A stretch of 64,000 bases of DNA from Biomaibacter acetigenes. GTDB lineage: Bacteria; Bacillota; Thermosediminibacteria; Thermosediminibacterales; Tepidanaerobacteraceae. The stretch is from assembly GCF_003691585.1 (NCBI RefSeq), contig NZ_CP033169.1, positions 186,001-250,000 of the forward strand. The letters are read 5' to 3'. Under the pieces are notes generated by a model. It searched no databases and was not told the DNA's origin. It saw only the letters and a list, made by a program, of their open reading frames with translations. Of the stretch, positions 40 through 41,302 are shown piece after piece. How positions within the stretch are numbered: position 1 is the first letter of the stretch; each line of letters begins with the position of its first letter. Position numbers and translations under genes: made by a program.

Positions 40-3000
40 GTTTTTAGCCTCCCTACGAGGAATTGAAACAGGGTGCCGATGCCGAAGCCCACGCAATATA
101 TCTTCGTTTTTAGCCTCCCTACGAGGAATTGAAACACCGCCTCCCTCCTTTGGGCCGCCCGCTTGAATGCGTTTTTAGCCTCCCTACGAGGAATTGAAAC
201 GCATGTCCTTTTCCAGGGCATAAATAATTTCCGGTGTGCGTTTTTAGCCTCCCTACGAGGAATTGAAACTGCTTCCTTCTCGAGATAGTCGGCTGCGGCT
301 TCCTGAGTTTTTAGCCTCCCTACGAGGAATTGAAACTCGGGCTGATTCTTACTCAAAACGAGGAAACTGTCGGTTTTTAGCCTCCCTACGAGGAATTGAA
401 ACATTAATCCGGGGTCTGGATTTGGAATATGTAGGAAGTTTTTAGCCTCCCTACGAGGAATTGAAACTGCTCTTTGACAACTTTTTCCCCTCCTTCAGCT
501 TTCGTTTTTAGCCTCCCTACGAGGAATTGAAACGAAGAACTGGCAAATGATTCATTTATAAAAAATGAAGTTTTTAGCCTCCCTACGAGGAATTGAAACA
601 TATAATCCCTGGCTCCGCCCAGATTGGGAATTCCGTTTTTAGCCTCCCTACGAGGAATTGAAACGAGCTTGCCGAGGTCCGCAAACTCCGGAATGATTGT
701 GTAGTTTTTAGCCTCCCTACGAGGAATTGAAACACTGTAATAATATCCCCGAAGTCCACATATTTAGTTTCGTTTTTAGCCTCCCTACGAGGAATTGAAA
801 CTTTATAAAAAATGAAAAGGAGAATGGGAAAATGAAAAGGTTTTTAGCCTCCCTACGAGGAATTGAAACTTTTATCCAGCGCCGACACGTGTACGAGAAT
901 CGTGCGTTTTTAGCCTCCCTACGAGGAATTGAAACATTAAATCGAAATGCAGAAGATAGAAGGCCGATGCTTGTTTTTAGCCTCCCTACGAGGAATTGAA
1001 ACGCTTCGGGATATGTTCTTTCCTTTGCGCCCTCGGGTTTTTAGCCTCCCTACGAGGAATTGAAACAGAACAGGAGTTATGGACCGCTCAAGACGCAGAA
1101 AAGTTTTTAGCCTCCCTACGAGGAATTGAAACGGGCAACACCGGCATCGAGGAATTTTTGAACCTTATGTTTTTAGCCTCCCTACGAGGAATTGAAACCA
1201 ATTAAGACCTTATATCTTCCCAGGCCAATTCCAGGTTTTTAGCCTCCCTACGAGGAATTGAAACGGATATTTCCGATGCTATAAGCATCATTTTCCGCCG
1301 GTTTTTAGCCTCCCTACGAGGAATTGAAACAGAACAGGAGTTATGGACCGCTCAAGACGCAGAAAAGTTTTTAGCCTCCCTACGAGGAATTGAAACGGGC
1401 AACACCGGCATCGAGGAATTTTTGAACCTTATGTTTTTAGCCTCCCTACGAGGAATTGAAACTGCACTGGTGGATATACGGGCAAGAAAAAATACCCGAG
1501 TTTTTAGCCTCCCTACGAGGAATTGAAACATCCTGGAGCCGGAACTAAAAAAAGCAGGATTCAATCCGTTTTTAGCCTCCCTACGAGGAATTGAAACTCT
1601 TCAAACCATCTAATTCTCCGCCGTATTGTCTTGGTTTTTAGCCTCCCTACGAGGAATTGAAACAAAAGGAACCGGAGGGATTAAAACGTTTAAGCCTGGG
1701 TTTTTAGCCTCCCTACGAGGAATTGAAACATACATTGCAGAATCAGGTAAATGCCGGAGCTGGAACGTTTTTAGCCTCCCTACGAGGAATTGAAACTCCT
1801 TTTCCCTGAAAGTTCGAAGATGCCTGCTTTTGTTTTTAGCCTCCCTACGAGGAATTGAAACTATCAAATCACAATTAATAGCACTGCATTTCAGTATGTT
1901 TTTAGCCTCCCTACGAGGAATTGAAACTCTCAATACCGATGCGGTCATAACGGCTCTGACCATAGGTTTTTAGCCTCCCTACGAGGAATTGAAACCCTTT
2001 TCCGCCAACTTCTTTTATTTCCCGGCAACAGTTTTTAGCCTCCCTACGAGGAATTGAAACAACCTTATGCCGAATACGTACCGGATTTGTTCCAATGTTT
2101 TTAGCCTCCCTACGAGGAATTGAAACGATTCCGCATAGAAATCACCGAAAATACTATCACCGTTTTTAGCCTCCCTACGAGGAATTGAAACCCCGAGCGC
2201 TGCTGGAACTCACGAAATACCAAAAATGGTTTTTAGCCTCCCTACGAGGAATTGAAACATTAGCGTGCACACATTCCACAGCACCATCGTCCACGTTTTT
2301 AGCCTCCCTACGAGGAATTGAAACGGGGCGAGAAGGTCCACAGTTTCCAGAACGAACAGGGTTTTTAGCCTCCCTACGAGGAATTGAAACAGCGGCCCGG
2401 AAACGAGCCGACCCCTCTCCAGGAAGGTTTTTAGCCTCCCTACGAGGAATTGAAACTGAAACTGCAAGTCGTTAAAAACAGCCCTGAACAACGTTTTTAG
2501 CCTCCCTACGAGGAATTGAAACTAGAATTCGCACCTTTTCTCCCATGCCCGCTGTTCGTTTTTAGCCTCCCTACGAGGAATTGAAACACAGTCGACGCAA
2601 TCCAGTGATATTTCCCCCATATCCGTTTTTAGCCTCCCTACGAGGAATTGAAACCTGCTTCCTTTGCTGTCGATACAACAGTTTACCGTCCGTTTTTAGC
2701 CTCCCTACGAGGAATTGAAACAGCAGGTAATTGATAAACTTGTTGATTATTTGCTGGGTTTTTAGCCTCCCTACGAGGAATTGAAACATACTTTTTCCTG
2801 GCAAAAATCGAATTTTAGAAATTGTTTTTAGCCTCCCTACGAGGAATTGAAACATTCTGCAATAGGTGCTGATGCCGAAGCCCACGCAAGTTTTTAGCCT
2901 CCCTACGAGGAATTGAAACCAAAGACCAGCCCATCGGCACAAAGACCGAATACAGTTTTTAGCCTCCCTACGAGGAATTGAAACTTTTTGAAGCTATTTT

Positions 3001-6000
3001 TGCTCTTTCTCCTGGACGAGCGTTTTTAGCCTCCCTACGAGGAATTGAAACACTTACTTCACCTCCTAAATTTTTATATTTCCCTGGGTTTTTAGCCTCC
3101 CTACGAGGAATTGAAACTCTTTTCCAATCCGAATGTCCGTCCCAGGTCCCGAAGTTTTTAGCCTCCCTACGAGGAATTGAAACAATTCGCTTTTCCTTCT
3201 TTGATTTTGCGGCTCGGGGCGTTTTTAGCCTCCCTACGAGGAATTGAAACTTTTAATAAAGTGCATCTTTGAGGCAGGATTCGAAAAAGTTTTTAGCCTC
3301 CCTACGAGGAATTGAAACCTGTATATCCGATTCTGGAAACCTTTTCCATTCCTCCGTTTTTAGCCTCCCTACGAGGAATTGAAACTGGCGTCTATTTGGT
3401 TATTGACGGCATCGAGTATAAGTTTTTAGCCTCCCTACGAGGAATTGAAACTCTGGATCAACGGTCGGTTTTTTCTATTTTCGGGAATGTTTTTAGCCTC
3501 CCTACGAGGAATTGAAACGCTCGTCCAGGAGAAAGAGCAAAAATAGCTTCAAAAAGTTTTTAGCCTCCCTACGAGGAATTGAAACCAAATGAGGAACTCG
3601 AAAGGTACGAAAGGTTAATACCGTTTTTAGCCTCCCTACGAGGAATTGAAACCAAGTCTCATGCCAGTTATTTTTTTCGACGTCATTTGTTTTTAGCCTC
3701 CCTACGAGGAATTGAAACTATCTAGCATAGGCTTGCAGAAATATCCTTTTTTTCGTTTTTAGCCTCCCTACGAGGAATTGAAACCACAAAAACCCGACGC
3801 CAAAACTCTGGATACCAAGCGTTTTTAGCCTCCCTACGAGGAATTGAAACTAATTTGTAAAACTATAACTGCTAGAAATCCCCATGGTTTTTAGCCTCCC
3901 TACGAGGAATTGAAACAGAGCCTTGCAAAAAATCTTTCAAAAAATTTTTATTGCGTTTTTAGCCTCCCTACGAGGAATTGAAACCAACGTGTAGGTATTT
4001 TAGAAAAACAATACACTTCACTGTTTTTAGCCTCCCTACGAGGAATTGAAACTTTCTTTCAGTGCAGACTTGTCCCCAGCCAAATATGTTTTTAGCCTCC
4101 CTACGAGGAATTGAAACCGTTGAAATTATCCAGATCCGTATCTGCGAATCCGGTTTTTAGCCTCCCTACGAGGAATTGAAACATCGCCGCCTGTATCGCC
4201 GCCGTATCATCCGTCACTGTTTTTAGCCTCCCTACGAGGAATTGAAACTGTTGATAAAAAAATAAGGGAGGAATAAAAATTGAGTTTTTAGCCTCCCTAC
4301 GAGGAATTGAAACTCTGTATCCGCATTATAAACTTTTTCGACAGAAATTAGTTTTTAGCCTCCCTACGAGGAATTGAAACATGCAATGCAAAATGTAAAG
4401 GGGGTATGAGGATATGGTTTTTAGCCTCCCTACGAGGAATTGAAACCCTCCTTTTGTACAATCAAAGATGAACGATTAAGAGTTTTTAGCCTCCCTACGA
4501 GGAATTGAAACTATCCGTACACAAAAGATACATATGGCACTATAGTGTTTTTAGCCTCCCTACGAGGAATTGAAACCCTCCTTTTGTACAATCAAAGATG
4601 AACGATTAAGAGTTTTTAGCCTCCCTACGAGGAATTGAAACTAACATGCTCTTGATATACTATAGTGCCATATGTATGTTTTTAGCCTCCCTACGAGGAA
4701 TTGAAACCAATGCAACACATCGATAGTTTTGAATTCGGCCACTGGGTTTTTAGCCTCCCTACGAGGAATTGAAACAATGCGACATTGTTAGACTGACTTT
4801 ATGTAAATCACCTGTTTTTAGCCTCCCTACGAGGAATTGAAACATTGAAAGAAAAAATGAAAAGGAGGATTTTAAAAATGGTTTTTAGCCTCCCTACGAG
4901 GAATTGAAACAATGTGTTTGATGCAATAAACGTATCAAATAGTCCTCCCGTTTTTAGCCTCCCTACGAGGAATTGAAACCAACGCCGGGAATAACTTCTC
5001 CTGTATTTTTCGATATCGTTTTTAGCCTCCCTACGAGGAATTGAAACCGGAGTTGGTCGATCCGTCCCATTTAACTGTAGCCCCGTTTTTAGCCTCCCTA
5101 CGAGGAATTGAAACATTTCCCCACATCTTTCTTAAACTGCTCCCATCCTGTTTTTAGCCTCCCTACGAGGAATTGAAACTGTACTTACATTTAATTCTCG
5201 CCCCCTTGTCAGAAGTTTTTAGCCTCCCTACGAGGAATTGAAACGCTTTTCAATTTTCATCGATTCTTCTCTCCTTTTTCGTTTTTAGCCTCCCTACGAG
5301 GAATTGAAACGTGTCGAGGGCTTTTTTAAGCTCTTCGACTTCCTTTTGTTTTTAGCCTCCCTACGAGGAATTGAAACAAACATCAAAACAATTTTGAATA
5401 TCGATTGCATTATTCGTTTTTAGCCTCCCTACGAGGAATTGAAACTCATTATTCTAGGAATTATTATCATTACTATTGCGGGTTTTTAGCCTCCCTACGA
5501 GGAATTGAAACATTTCAACACCACCAAGGTCGGCCTGGAACGGATGGGTTTTTAGCCTCCCTACGAGGAATTGAAACTTTGAATATTCAGAATTCGACTC
5601 CCTGGCCTGGTATACGTTTTTAGCCTCCCTACGAGGAATTGAAACAAGTATTTGAAAAAAGGTATATTGTCTACATATGAAAAGTTTTTAGCCTCCCTAC
5701 GAGGAATTGAAACAACAAGCCGGTTTTTTTCAAGAAGGCAGGAAAGCTCGTTTTTAGCCTCCCTACGAGGAATTGAAACGTTGGCTCTGGTAGAAGTACC
5801 GAAGCCGAAGGAGAAAAGTTTTTAGCCTCCCTACGAGGAATTGAAACGCAAGTTACTACTGTTTCCTCGTTTTGAGTGAGAATGTTTTTAGCCTCCCTAC
5901 GAGGAATTGAAACCCAGTTCCAGAAACTTCATATCTCATATTGCGATTACGTTTTTAGCCTCCCTACGAGGAATTGAAACGGAGTAGGACCTTTTAATGA

Positions 6001-7903
6001 CATGTCGAGTGTCAGTTTTTAGCCTCCCTACGAGGAATTGAAACATTACCAGTTTGCTTGAAGCACTTCAGTCACAGCAGGCGTTTTTAGCCTCCCTACG
6101 AGGAATTGAAACTGTCATGGTTTTTTGGTAAAAAATTTGTATTTTACTTGTTTTTAGCCTCCCTACGAGGAATTGAAACTCGGGGCCGGAGCCGGAATCC
6201 TGATATACTCTCTTTTTTCGTTTTTAGCCTCCCTACGAGGAATTGAAACAGTGAAATACGAATTTCCGACATTGAAAAAGAGCTTGTTTTTAGCCTCCCT
6301 ACGAGGAATTGAAACTATGAGACAGGTTACAACGGACACCCCGAATTTCCCCGTTTTTAGCCTCCCTACGAGGAATTGAAACTGTAAAGACAAGATAAGG
6401 GCTTGCAGGATGCCCTAGTTTTTAGCCTCCCTACGAGGAATTGAAACCTGGGCTTATGGAATGTGCGAAATGCGGGAGTAAACGTTTTTAGCCTCCCTAC
6501 GAGGAATTGAAACTGCGTAAAAAATCCGGCCTGTCGTCCGTCGTCGCCGAGTTTTTAGCCTCCCTACGAGGAATTGAAACCCCAGCAGCGTTCCGTAGGC
6601 CCGCTTCCAATCCTGGTTTTTAGCCTCCCTACGAGGAATTGAAACATTGTTCAGAGCATCTTATACTACTTGAACAACCTTCCGTTTTTAGCCTCCCTAC
6701 GAGGAATTGAAACGGTTTCGGAAAATTTGACTTTCCTGGCCGTAGAGTTTGTTTTTAGCCTCCCTACGAGGAATTGAAACTTTTATTGCGCAAGAGAAAT
6801 GTCGATATAATATTCCGTTTTTAGCCTCCCTACGAGGAATTGAAACCAGGTCTAATGATGATAGAACAGAAGGCTGGAAAGAGTTTTTAGCCTCCCTACG
6901 AGGAATTGAAACTCGACGTGCGGGGAGAATTTGCCTGGCAAAATATAGGTTTTTAGCCTCCCTACGAGGAATTGAAACTTTCGCATCGCTTTTGCCTGAC
7001 TCTGCCAAGCCCCGCGTTTTTAGCCTCCCTACGAGGAATTGAAACCAAAATACAGGTTCGATGTATCCCCCAAGTCTTAGCGTTTTTAGCCTCCCTACGA
7101 GGAATTGAAACGGTGAACCGTGGACCTCTGGAGCTTTCCGACACCCGGTTTTTAGCCTCCCTACGAGGAATTGAAACCCGCCAGGGCCTTCTGGAAGACC
7201 AGCGCACTTACAGTTTTTAGCCTCCCTACGAGGAATTGAAACGCATACAAATTTTTTATAACTGCCATACAATCTTGGTTTTTAGCCTCCCTACGAGGAA
7301 TTGAAACAGCCAATCCATGATCACTTTTCTGCCGTGCAAGATACGTTTTTAGCCTCCCTACGAGGAATTGAAACCATCACAACGCCTCTGCTTAGCTTTG
7401 CTCCGCTCATGTTTTTAGCCTCCCTACGAGGAATTGAAACACAAAATGTATATTTTGTTATATTCGGGGATACGCAGTTTTTAGCCTCCCTACGAGGAAT
7501 TGAAACTTTTCCCTTATTTTTGCTCAAAAAAGAATCTAACAATGTTTTTAGCCTCCCTACGAGGAATTGAAACTTCTTTCAAACTGCTCTTGCAATTCCT
7601 CCGGCAAAGTTTTTAGCCTCCCTACGAGGAATTGAAATATCTTTCAAATGTAATATAATTCTGGTTCCGAAACGTGTTTTTAGCCTCCCTACGAGGAATT
7701 GAAGTATCTGTAATCCCTATAATCAGGCCGCAATGGAATAGTTTTTAGCCTCTCTACGAGGAATTGAAATCTTCTTCCGGCTGTTCTGGAATCCGCTTTT
7801 CTAGTTCGTTTTTAGCCTCCCTACGAGGAATTGAAACCCTTTGTGCCCCGCTCCGCCATATCCACATCGCCGGGTTTTTAGCCTCCCTACGAGGAATTGA
7901 AAC
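40..7903 (+). CRISPR. Very large CRISPR array, 119 near-canonical repeats
   Basis: I counted 119 copies of a 30-bp repeat that starts GTTTTTAGCCTCC and ends GAGGAATTGAAAC, first at 40-69 and last at 7874-7903. Spacers are 34-40 bp, mostly 35-38. The ATTGAAAC 3' end is the usual 5' handle of type I-B-like crRNAs, so transcription should run on the plus strand, with the leader off the left edge and the old, leader-distal end on the right. All copies are identical except 7609-7638 and 7676-7705 (changed last bases) and 7741-7770 (one internal change plus the last base). Spacers at 1067/1331, 1133/1397 and 4447/4577 are duplicated, and several others overlap or are reverse complements. No cas gene lies in the window, so the subtype is inferred from the repeat alone. 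Short reading frames across the array are translated repeats, not genes. Confidence 0.99.
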
Positions 7904-35928: not shown

Positions 35929-36051
35929 ATGCCCGGAATTATTTGTTCGAGAGTATCCAATAATAAAGATAGGCAACTGTTCACCGACTGAGTTGCGCCA
36001 TAAACTGGATGGCGAACAGTTACAAAATAGAGACGAAAAAGGAAGGTGTAC

Positions 36052-37029
36052 ATGGTGAAAAAGCGGTGGATTGCTTTGGTATTGATTTTAGTGTTAGCAA
36101 TGTCTATGACTGCTGGATGCTCCCGGCTTCGGGGAAGACCAGCAAGAAAACCCGCCCTGCCAAAAATACCCGATAAAATAAACAGGAGAGCGGGTGTGGA
36201 ACCCAGGCTTAGGGTATATGATATACAGACAAAGACCACAAAGGAGATGAATCTGGAGGATTATGTGGCCGGGGTGGTGGCCGGAGAGATGGAAAACTAT
36301 TGGCCTGTGGAAGCACTGGCAGCCCAGGCTATCCTGGCGCGGACTTACGTTCTGGAATTTATTGAAGACAAGGGTGGGTCCAAATACAGCAATGCTGATA
36401 TTTCCACCGATTTCGAAGAAGCCCAGGCCTGGAATCCCGGCAATATTAACGAAAACATCAAAAAAGCCGTATCCATGACTAGAGGTAAGGTGGTGACTTA
36501 CCAGGGTAAATATATCAAGGCATGGTTTCATTCCCATGCCGGAGGGATAACGGCCACAGCCAAGGAAGGCCTGAATTTCAAGGAAGCCGAACCACCTTAC
36601 ATTCAGGTGGTAAAATCCCCCGATACCAATGCCGGACCCGCCGGCAAAAGGACCTGGTCTGCTACTTTTACGAAAAGTGAACTTGCTTCCATGATAAAGA
36701 GCAAGATGGGGCAGGATACAGGACCCATAGACAGTGTCAGCATAGCTGCAAGAGGTCCTTCGGGCAGGGCAACTCAGATAAAAATAGGCAATGCCACGAT
36801 GAATGCTCCGGACCTTAGAATCGCCCTGGGAAGCATGAAGATGCGGTCTACCCTGCTCACCAGCCTCCGTATAGAAGGAGATAAAGTGGTCATGGTCGGA
36901 AAAGGCTTCGGCCACGGTGTAGGCCTTTCCCAGTGGGGGGCCAATGTCATGGCCAAACAGGGCAAATCTCCGGAGGATATTATACGGTATTACTTTAAAA
37001 ATGTGGATGTAGTGAAGCTGTGGAAATAG
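36052..37029 (+). CDS. SpoIID/LytB-domain lipoprotein
   Basis: A 325-residue exported protein. The signal segment WIALVLILVLAMSMTAGC ends in a lipobox-like TAGC. The SpoIID/LytB domain follows: MNLEDYVAGVVAGEMENYWPVEALAAQAILARTYVLEFIE (catalytic Glu in AGEM), AWFHSHAGGITATAKE, and the C-terminal GFGHGVGLSQWGANVMAKQG signature. In SpoIID this fold is a lytic transglycosylase that trims denuded glycan strands at engulfment; paralogues such as this one occur in vegetative or sporulating cells. The ATG at 36052 follows AAAGGAAGG. It starts the accessory block between hup and yabP. Confidence 0.9.
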   Translation: MVKKRWIALVLILVLAMSMTAGCSRLRGRPARKPALPKIPDKINRRAGVEPRLRVYDIQTKTTKEMNLEDYVAGVVAGEMENYWPVEALAAQAILARTYVLEFIEDKGGSKYSNADISTDFEEAQAWNPGNINENIKKAVSMTRGKVVTYQGKYIKAWFHSHAGGITATAKEGLNFKEAEPPYIQVVKSPDTNAGPAGKRTWSATFTKSELASMIKSKMGQDTGPIDSVSIAARGPSGRATQIKIGNATMNAPDLRIALGSMKMRSTLLTSLRIEGDKVVMVGKGFGHGVGLSQWGANVMAKQGKSPEDIIRYYFKNVDVVKLWK

Positions 37030-37139: not shown

Positions 37140-37210
37140 AAAAGATATTAGATAAAATATTAATGCAACAATTTATTCAAATTGTTGCATTTACTTATAA
37201 GAATATCTTT
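37140..37210. repeat. Nested inverted repeat, AT-rich
   Basis: An inner perfect 13-bp inverted repeat, AATGCAACAATTT with its complement around ATTC (37163-37192), is enclosed by an outer pair AAAGATATT (37140) and AATATCTTT (to 37210). It lies between a terminator and the promoter of the structured RNA and could be an operator, a recombination remnant or a transcription barrier. Confidence 0.7.
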
Positions 37211-37234
37211 ATTTTATTTAAATTGTTATTTTAG

Positions 37235-37240
37235 TATAAA
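37235..37240 (+). promoter_or_regulatory. Likely -10 box for the structured RNA
   Basis: TATAAA at 37235-37240 sits 5-7 bp before the first paired base of the RNA at 37245, the expected distance to a start site. The -35 region (TTTTAT around 37212) is weak. Confidence 0.5.
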
Positions 37241-37244
37241 GATT

Positions 37245-37453
37245 AAGTCCACTGCCGGAAACGGCCGAAAGCACCGGAAGCTCTCAGTCTCCGCTCTTAG
37301 GTTGAAAACATAGAGGAAAAAAGGCATAAGCCCTGCGGCCGGCAGCAAGGCACACGCCGGATTGCCGGCGAACCTTCGCAAAGTGCAGAACTAAACTCTA
37401 GAGCGGCGGAGAGCTGCGGTGCCGGGCCATCTCCGGCAGTAAAGTGACTTTTT
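37245..37453 (+). ncRNA. Unassigned ~205-nt structured RNA
   Basis: A GC-rich island in AT-rich intergenic DNA folds into one long interrupted stem. Paired segments from outside in: AAGTC/GACTT (37245/37446), ACTGCCGG/CCGGCAGT (37251/37433), GGCC/GGCC (37263/37425), GCACC/GGTGC (37271/37418), AGCTCTC/GAGAGCT (37279/37409), CCGCTCT/AGAGCGG (37291/37400). The apex adds GCCGGC/GCCGGC (37338/37364), AAGG/CCTT and CTGC/GCAG, with A-rich joins. The 3' strand of the outermost helix runs into TTTTT, so it would terminate itself. Size and shape recall the raiA-motif RNA of Clostridia, but I cannot confirm the family. No reading frame of note spans it. The HD-GYP gene begins 55 bp downstream. Confidence 0.75.
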
Positions 37454-37507
37454 ACACCAGAGTCAATTTATGGGTTTTTAAATAAATAAAATAGTCGGTG
37501 GATCGGC

Positions 37508-38449
37508 ATGGAAAAATCCAAAGACGATTTCTTTTCTGAGATGGTGGCTGCACTGTCGCTCATGATGGATTTTAGTGAAAATCGAAAACTTTATCACGCC
37601 TGGCGGGTAGCTATTTTATCAGAAAAGCTTTCACAAAAAATACTTCCGGAATATAGAACGGAGATCTTTTATGCCGTTGATATTCTCCTTAGAGAAAATT
37701 TTACAAGCTCGGGAAACATAAAGAAAAAACTTTCGCTCCGGCGGGGAAAGGAATTTTCCGATAAGATTTATGAGGCTATGGAGGCAACCCTTGATGAAGA
37801 TGATTTTTTTGATGATATTACATCTGAGAAAAGTATTTTTCAAATAGTGTTAAAAACTATGAAAAATTTACCATCTGCCAATATGGCGCCCTGTGAAAGC
37901 GAAATGGATGAAACTATAAAAGTATTTGCAGAGGTGATAGATGCAAAACATAATTACACTGCCGGCCATTCTGAGAGAGTGGCAATTTATACATATATTC
38001 TTGCTAAGGCATTAGGTATTCCGGAAAAACAAGCAAGAAAGTTAAAAGTGGCAGGTTATTTACATGATGCTGGAAAAGTGGCTATTCCAAGAGCCATATT
38101 AGATAAACCCGGACGCCTTACCCTGGATGAATTTAAACTGATAAAAAGGCATCCTGTTTACACTATGGAAATAATGAGTATGATAAATTGTTTAAAAGAC
38201 CTGGTAATTATAGCCGGAAGCCATCACGAACGCTACGATGGTATGGGGTATCCGGGGAGAATGTTGAGAAATTATATTCCACTGGGAGGAAGGATAATGG
38301 CGGTAGCTGATGCTTATGATGCCATGACATCTGAAAGGCCTTATCAACACAAAAGAAATCCCATAGAAGCCAAAGACATACTAATAAAATATTCTGGCAG
38401 CCAGTTCGATCCGGAAATAGTAAAAGTAGCCGTTAAGGTTTTGCCATGA
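37508..38449 (+). CDS. HD-GYP domain protein, probable c-di-GMP phosphodiesterase
   Basis: A 313-residue cytoplasmic protein. The N-terminal ~135 residues are an unrecognised helical region; residues ~140-313 form an HD-GYP domain with AKHNYTAGHSERVAIYTYILAKALG, the metal-binding VAGYLHDAGKVAIPRAILDKPGRLT, SHHERYDGMGYPG (the GYP motif) and MAVADAYDAMTSERPYQ. All catalytic residues appear present, so it should hydrolyse cyclic di-GMP. It lies downstream of the structured RNA and upstream of a diguanylate cyclase gene and c-di-GMP riboswitches, suggesting a local signalling module. The ribosome site before the ATG is weak. Confidence 0.88.
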   Translation: MEKSKDDFFSEMVAALSLMMDFSENRKLYHAWRVAILSEKLSQKILPEYRTEIFYAVDILLRENFTSSGNIKKKLSLRRGKEFSDKIYEAMEATLDEDDFFDDITSEKSIFQIVLKTMKNLPSANMAPCESEMDETIKVFAEVIDAKHNYTAGHSERVAIYTYILAKALGIPEKQARKLKVAGYLHDAGKVAIPRAILDKPGRLTLDEFKLIKRHPVYTMEIMSMINCLKDLVIIAGSHHERYDGMGYPGRMLRNYIPLGGRIMAVADAYDAMTSERPYQHKRNPIEAKDILIKYSGSQFDPEIVKVAVKVLP

Positions 38450-40154: not shown

Positions 40155-40295
40155 AACTTCAAAAAAATCAGAGAAAGCCTTCTTGCATCTTTAGCTTCTT
40201 TAATAGCTTTAGTCGCATTTACAGCAGTGAGTCCCGCCAGCATATGGATACTATACGAACCGGAAATCCCGGATGCACTAAAGAAAGTTTCCTGA
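40155..40295 (+). pseudogene. Decayed AgrD-like autoinducer peptide gene (copy 1)
   Basis: The frame reads NFKKIRESLLASLASLIAL ... VAFTAVSPASIWILYEPEIP then DALKKVS, almost identical to the intact copy at 41060. The initiation codon ATG is replaced by AAC and the ribosome site is missing. A GTG six codons upstream (40137) is in frame but sits in an 18-nt hairpin GTGTATA/TATACAC. A separate open frame from 40076 (MLKKTWVKVILVLLLVW ...) enters this stretch out of frame and is probably a truncated small membrane protein gene. The copy looks non-functional unless the GTG is used. Confidence 0.75.
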
Positions 40296-40308
40296 AGAAA
40301 AAAATAAA

Positions 40309-40376
40309 CAAAGATAAGGGCGTAAAGCCACAGGGTCTAAGGTGTTTGCCCGCACTATGACAGCCTGGCTGCCGCT
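40309..40376 (+). promoter_or_regulatory. Truncated c-di-GMP-I riboswitch (copy 1)
   Basis: The 3' part of a GEMM-I aptamer is clear: GGGCGTAAAGCCACAGGGTC, TAAGG, then GCACTATGACAGCCTGGCTG and CCGCT. The 5' part (GGCAAAC and the GAAA-capped hairpin present in copy 2) is missing. No gene follows closely on the plus strand. It is most likely a relic of the duplication that also copied agrD. Confidence 0.8.
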
Positions 40377-41200: not shown

Positions 41201-41213
41201 AGAGAAAGAAATA

Positions 41214-41302
41214 AGTGATAAAGGCAAACTTATCGAAAGATAAGGGCGCAAAGCCATAGGGTCTAAGGTGTTTAGCTGCACTATGACAGCCTGGCTGCCG
41301 CT
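41214..41302 (+). promoter_or_regulatory. c-di-GMP-I (GEMM) riboswitch, intact copy 2
   Basis: All landmarks are present: closing pair AGTG/CGCT, GGCAAAC, first hairpin CTTATC-GAAA-GATAAG with a GNRA loop, then GGGCGCAAAGCCATAGGGTC, TAAGG, and GCACTATGACAGCCTGGCTG with CCGCT. A strong terminator hairpin follows at 41321, so binding of cyclic di-GMP probably decides read-through into the split sigma-factor genes. Whether the ligand turns expression on or off cannot be told from the sequence alone. Confidence 0.92.

Follow-up and report, generated by a model that had tools for sequence, protein, structure and literature searches.

The folded sequence at 37225-37464 of the window, by which we mean the whole 64,000-nucleotide stretch of Biomaibacter acetigenes DNA analysed here, is best explained as a worn copy of an IS1182-type MITE with a TwoAYGGAY-superfamily interior, a reading to which we assign a probability of roughly 0.9. 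Its wider interest is that a predicted CsrA-binding RNA family is joined to transposable elements, a link undescribed in the literature that we found.

The folded region and its setting

An earlier note, made from the letters alone, had described positions 37245-37453 as a self-contained structured RNA of ~205 nt. That a stable structure is present there was readily confirmed: the segment folds into a single long stem, interrupted and capped by apical hairpins, at -93.5 kcal/mol, compared with -68.6 +/- 4.6 kcal/mol for shuffled sequences (z -5.5), and 0 of 200 shuffles were equally stable. The GC content also stands out as described: it is 0.53, whereas the adjoining 100 bp on the left have 0.13 and the window as a whole 0.44. 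The opposite strand, taken as DNA, folds equally well (z -5.25). Although the fold stands, its boundaries shift. The natural unit spans 240 bp (37225-37464, with the putative RNA on the + strand), aligns with 11 other copies and has inverted-repeat ends; it scores 122 bits (E 6e-24) with R1, a covariance model that covers the interior of the element and was built from 12 copies, the window copy included.

Full copies start with GATTCYGGTGTAAAAA and finish with its inverse, and these terminal inverted repeats explain both the TATAAA box (GTATAAAG) previously remarked before the 5' end and the T run (GACTTTTTACACC) at the 3' end, which are thus neither promoter nor terminator. The box lies in the left repeat (37225-37241), which from the alignment and the consensus of the family ends is here a degenerate version, GTTATTTTAGTATAAAG, and the T run lies in the right repeat, TTTTTACACCAGAGTC (37449-37464; genome 223449-223466, differing from the search pattern at one position). 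A consensus scan of the + strand found no promoter-like site near 37245 and no terminator-like site at the 3' end of the element.

The flanking genes, named earlier as encoding a spore-wall protein and a c-di-GMP phosphodiesterase, were upheld by the annotation check as a SpoIID/LytB-domain gene (36046-37029, + strand) and an HD-GYP-type phosphodiesterase-like gene (37508-38449, + strand). Compared with the same-genus orthologue (L088), the first HD domain of the latter is shorter by ~84 residues, apparently through an in-frame deletion with ILPEYRTEIFYA on one side and VDILLREN on the other. Past the terminator of spoIID but before the element there is another hairpin, perfect, A+T-rich and separate from the fold (ATGCAACAATTT..AAATTGTTGCAT, 37162-37191), which is also missing from the orthologous interval of G001, a genome of the same genus. 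Elsewhere the window contains, on the minus strand, a very long CRISPR array (40-7903) in which a single 30-nt repeat type occurs more than 110 times, interrupted by a gap at ~7574-7807, and two c-di-GMP-I riboswitches close together (40293-40376 and 41213-41302), near a GGDEF-type gene.

The structure was also rightly called unrecognised, since no Rfam family reached its cutoff over the window feature and nothing sensible appeared at a relaxed threshold. GibS, IS128, GOLLD and other weak relaxed-threshold matches were far under their cutoffs, mostly over the A+T-rich flank, and were set aside. The raiA motif, to which size and long-stem shape had pointed, gave no match here at either the gathering or a relaxed threshold, and the chance that the feature is a raiA RNA is, in our judgement, negligible. 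A single raiA-like match was found with this model in the whole genome, 668 kb from the element and upstream of a zinc-ribbon-like reading frame (L001 1501-1618, C1:891487-891604; 118 nt, 47 bits against an Rfam cutoff of 101).

Ends, insertion sites and a candidate transposase

A DNA search found further copies in this genome and in the close relatives G001, G004 and G009; the aligned copies have both arms and both ends in common and describe a dispersed, near-palindromic element of ~240-290 bp. By R1 there are 13 core copies in this genome (G000), 10 in G001, 9 in G004 and 6 in G009, which is an incomplete genome. Five further genomes of the family Tepidanaerobacteraceae carry 3-13 copies each, and four genomes of that family have no R1 copy. 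The window copy is the sole R1 match within the window. Besides its 13 core copies, this genome has some 20 truncated forms or pieces of the ends, including solo outer hairpins and paired ends around unrelated interiors of 55-125 bp, so that some form of the element occupies ~30 loci by a by-eye tally of the match lists. An exact-pattern scan of named genomes, from which the records of this genome itself may be absent, found the element in two Tepidanaerobacteraceae/Thermoanaerobacterales MAGs only. Phage and plasmid records held no similar DNA, and an origin from either was rejected. Inside some truncated elements (L021, L033 and L203) there is another small repeat, with sequence of the AGATGCCAGATGTCAGAT type flanking an inner hairpin. 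At another locus (L055, 1377-2684) a 435-aa minus-strand reading frame crosses an element copy, which suggests insertion near the 3' end of that gene.

The terminal inverted repeats are common to these short, non-coding copies, as in MITEs, and the end motif with its flanking TT gave 37 matches against 6 for a reversed control. In 16 of 29 elements the flanking 6-mers agree at five or all six positions, where 2.8 would be expected and 5000 shuffles reached at most 9; ten elements have exact 6-bp target duplications, with a target preference of AAnnTT. Our first guess of a 2-bp duplication was replaced by this statistically tested one, and an end pattern with the wrong gap length returned only noise, under its own control. 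Two observations count against the MITE reading for the window copy taken by itself: its flanks are degenerate, with no exact target duplication, and its left end is degenerate.

The orthologous site provided a direct comparison. Between spoIID and the HD-GYP gene there are 124 bp and no element in G001, as opposed to 478 bp here (the lengths were counted directly; the MAFFT alignment of the interval is poor), and the extra sequence is ~110 bp longer than the element, a further point against the MITE reading. Only 2 sites are common to G000 and G001, of ~21 and 13 loci compared, respectively. Together, the dispersed ends, the 6-bp duplications, the empty site and the scarcity of common sites show that the element family is mobile. 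What had been taken for a self-contained RNA is, accordingly, a multicopy mobile element with inverted-repeat ends.

The empty site also bears on the idea that the sequence is a cis-regulatory, riboswitch-like leader of the HD-GYP gene. The arrangement is suggestive, since the element ends 43 bp before the start codon and is on the same strand as the gene. However, the same-genus orthologue does without it, which refutes a conserved leader function, and other copies lie beside unrelated genes in both orientations; a leader role thus has a very slight probability. That its neighbours are concerned with sporulation and c-di-GMP is incidental.

For the mobile-element reading, relatives supply a candidate source of movement. 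In G004, a transposase-bearing sequence with the same ends (a 17-bp perfect inverted repeat; L250) directly abuts an element; the IS1182-like gene of this sequence is broken by a different IS. The same ends enclose a related gene in G001 (L258), which is 85% identical and has one in-frame stop, and the whole is flanked by a 9-bp direct repeat, ATAATTTAT. The best NCBIfam model for the transposase is IS1182 (E 5e-34), although the protein tested was a fragment and scored under the family cutoff. In this genome no intact autonomous copy was found, only a small remnant near C1:2605400. The element that directly adjoins the IS1182-like one in G004 (L168/L250; contig 35, 5150-5441) is itself chimeric, with its left half from one subfamily and its right half from another. 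From the common ends we infer that an IS1182-type transposase moved the elements in trans.

The TwoAYGGAY-like interior and the constraint on it

In the window copy, the fold and the alignment place the outer stem between CTGCCGGAAACGGCC (37252-37266) and GGCCATCTCCGGCAG (37425-37439) on the + strand. Further in, GCACCG (37271-37276) pairs with the GGTGC region at 37418-37422 (covariation helix 1) and CCGCTCTTAGGTT (37291-37303) with AACTCTAGAGCGG (37394-37406), the latter forming helices 3 and 4, which covary strongly across the family. Two apical hairpins follow, GGCATAAGCC (37323-37332) and GGCCGGCA..AGGCACACGCC..TTGCCGGCG (37337-37370). The first has an (A)YGGAY loop in most relatives and CATAAG here; the second has CAGGA in relatives and CACA here. 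Most copies carry GGA in one or both loops, and the window copy has lost both sites. Because several pairs have been lost as well, this copy is most likely an inert relic still able to fold.

This layout is that of TwoAYGGAY (RF01731), and the Rfam search that the earlier note had recommended, blank for the window copy even at E<=10, succeeded with its sisters: L009 (in G009) and L055 (in this genome) score 44.8 bits each and L056 42.4, against a gathering cutoff of 43. Conversely, R1, with which the nested stem and two-hairpin layout of the window copy is recognised at 122 bits, matches TwoAYGGAY loci in other families of Clostridia (E 1.6e-12, 9e-10 and 2e-9; 15 matches in all). Since the covariance models match in both directions, homology at the level of the superfamily is supported, and on this comparison the interior of the element belongs to the TwoAYGGAY superfamily. 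Across 25 distant TwoAYGGAY sequences with a mean identity of 46%, the invariant columns are the two GGA hairpins, although RF01731 partly selected the sequences by these very letters; a second model made from them retained no more than 13 pairs and was set aside.

The helices are preserved by compensatory change among relatives, as had been proposed as a check on the structure. In an alignment of 51 copies (A4), which was fitted to R1 and leans towards its structure, 41 of 47 pairs show double-sided change, and double-change cells number 355, compared with 105 +/- 13 after shuffling and 40-67 with a slid partner. A palindromic DNA element could, however, keep its arms paired without any RNA function, and pair covariation alone is no proof of a host RNA gene where the sequence is a mobile palindrome. 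Selection on the RNA strand predicts that G-U pairs should outnumber A-C mismatches. In the copies of G003, G008 and G011 they do, at 15:1 counted by cell and 9:1 counted by distinct position (p 0.02); the genus of the window shows no such excess, with ratios of 18:22 (G000) and 23:23 (G001). The fold may therefore be under RNA-level selection in some lineages and decaying in the genus of the window, and part of the covariation could come from upkeep of a DNA palindrome.

CsrA, other lineages and known systems

Rfam places TwoAYGGAY together with CsrB in clan CL00106, and motif matches led Gardner and Eldai to propose in 2014 that it binds CsrA (PMC4333381). In 299 genomes surveyed across the phylum, csrA is present in 42 of the 44 with TwoAYGGAY and in 171 of the 255 without (Fisher 4e-5, on counts that ignore phylogeny); the genome of the window has csrA. 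These observations, together with the retention of GGA in most loops despite freely varying stems, and with the wobble bias in the genera G003, G008 and G011, would be expected if the copies were an amplified family of CsrB-like trans-acting RNAs, each transcribed and titrating CsrA through paired GGA loops, with the window copy as one sRNA gene. We nevertheless consider this improbable. The window copy has neither GGA site and no promoter-like site just upstream on the + strand, its genus shows no wobble bias, and RF01731 itself selects GGA loops.

A further objection comes from G141. Seven canonical TwoAYGGAY copies there have both ends readable, with a hairpin at each side. In six of the seven the two hairpins clearly repeat each other directly over 17-24 nt, in a sequence found at that locus alone (scores of 13-20, against 8 or less for mismatched pairs); the score of the remaining copy does not exceed that maximum. 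The flanking hairpins at the G141 loci L268-L275 are terminator-like and site-specific, and look like target duplication of a whole hairpin. Such duplicated hairpins should block read-through into the copies between them. The ends in G141 differ from those of the element family of the window. With G141 and Tepidanaerobacteraceae, then, the fold is carried by mobile elements in two lineages or more. Insertion at terminator hairpins is known for the IS1182 family (PMC4923244).

These results are consistent with the following mechanism. A short non-autonomous element with IS1182-type ends has dispersed copies, duplicating a 6-bp target on insertion, with movement presumably supplied in trans by an IS1182-type transposase. 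Its interior forms the long interrupted stem with two apical hairpins, whose loops normally present paired GGA sites, and intact copies, when transcribed, would bind a CsrA dimer, as predicted for the TwoAYGGAY family.

RF01731 has matches in 22 families, TwoAYGGAY is multicopy in many of the surveyed genomes (at least 8-9 per genome among nine candidates scored), and long fold-backs enclose canonical copies too. It is possible, if doubtful, that TwoAYGGAY of Clostridia are mobile elements at heart, that is, MITEs with lineage-specific ends and paired high-affinity CsrA-type sites as a conserved RNA cargo, whose copy number or own transcription couples transposition to the CsrA network of the host. 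At least in Tepidanaerobacteraceae and G141, a predicted CsrA-binding RNA family is borne by multicopy transposable elements. This changes how Rfam matches to TwoAYGGAY are to be read, and raises the question of why a MITE would keep two CsrA-type sites.

Set against known systems, the element resembles the raiA motif (RF03072) in its similar length and long stem, but has no match to that model. With TwoAYGGAY (RF01731, clan CL00106) it has in common the nested interrupted stem, the two apical hairpins, the GGA loops of sister copies and the reciprocal covariance-model matches; it differs in that the window copy is undetected by RF01731 and has lost both AYGGAY loops, and TwoAYGGAY itself is listed by Rfam as cis-regulatory and is not described as a mobile element in the literature found. 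The bcr1-bcr18 repeats of Bacillus cereus are likewise MITE-like intergenic repeats, some with conserved RNA structure and transcribed, although the parts of that account at hand describe no CsrA-type loops (PMC3446304); this likeness is one of description, and we claim no relation in sequence. IS1272 targets hairpins with partial deletion of the target (Furi et al. 2016, PMC4923244), in contrast to the consistent 6-bp duplications found here. Like the IS1182-family MITEs, the element is short and non-coding, has the ends of an IS1182-like transposase gene of relatives, duplicates its target and leaves solo-end derivatives. It differs from them in that nearly its full length, beyond the ends, is a covarying structured fold.
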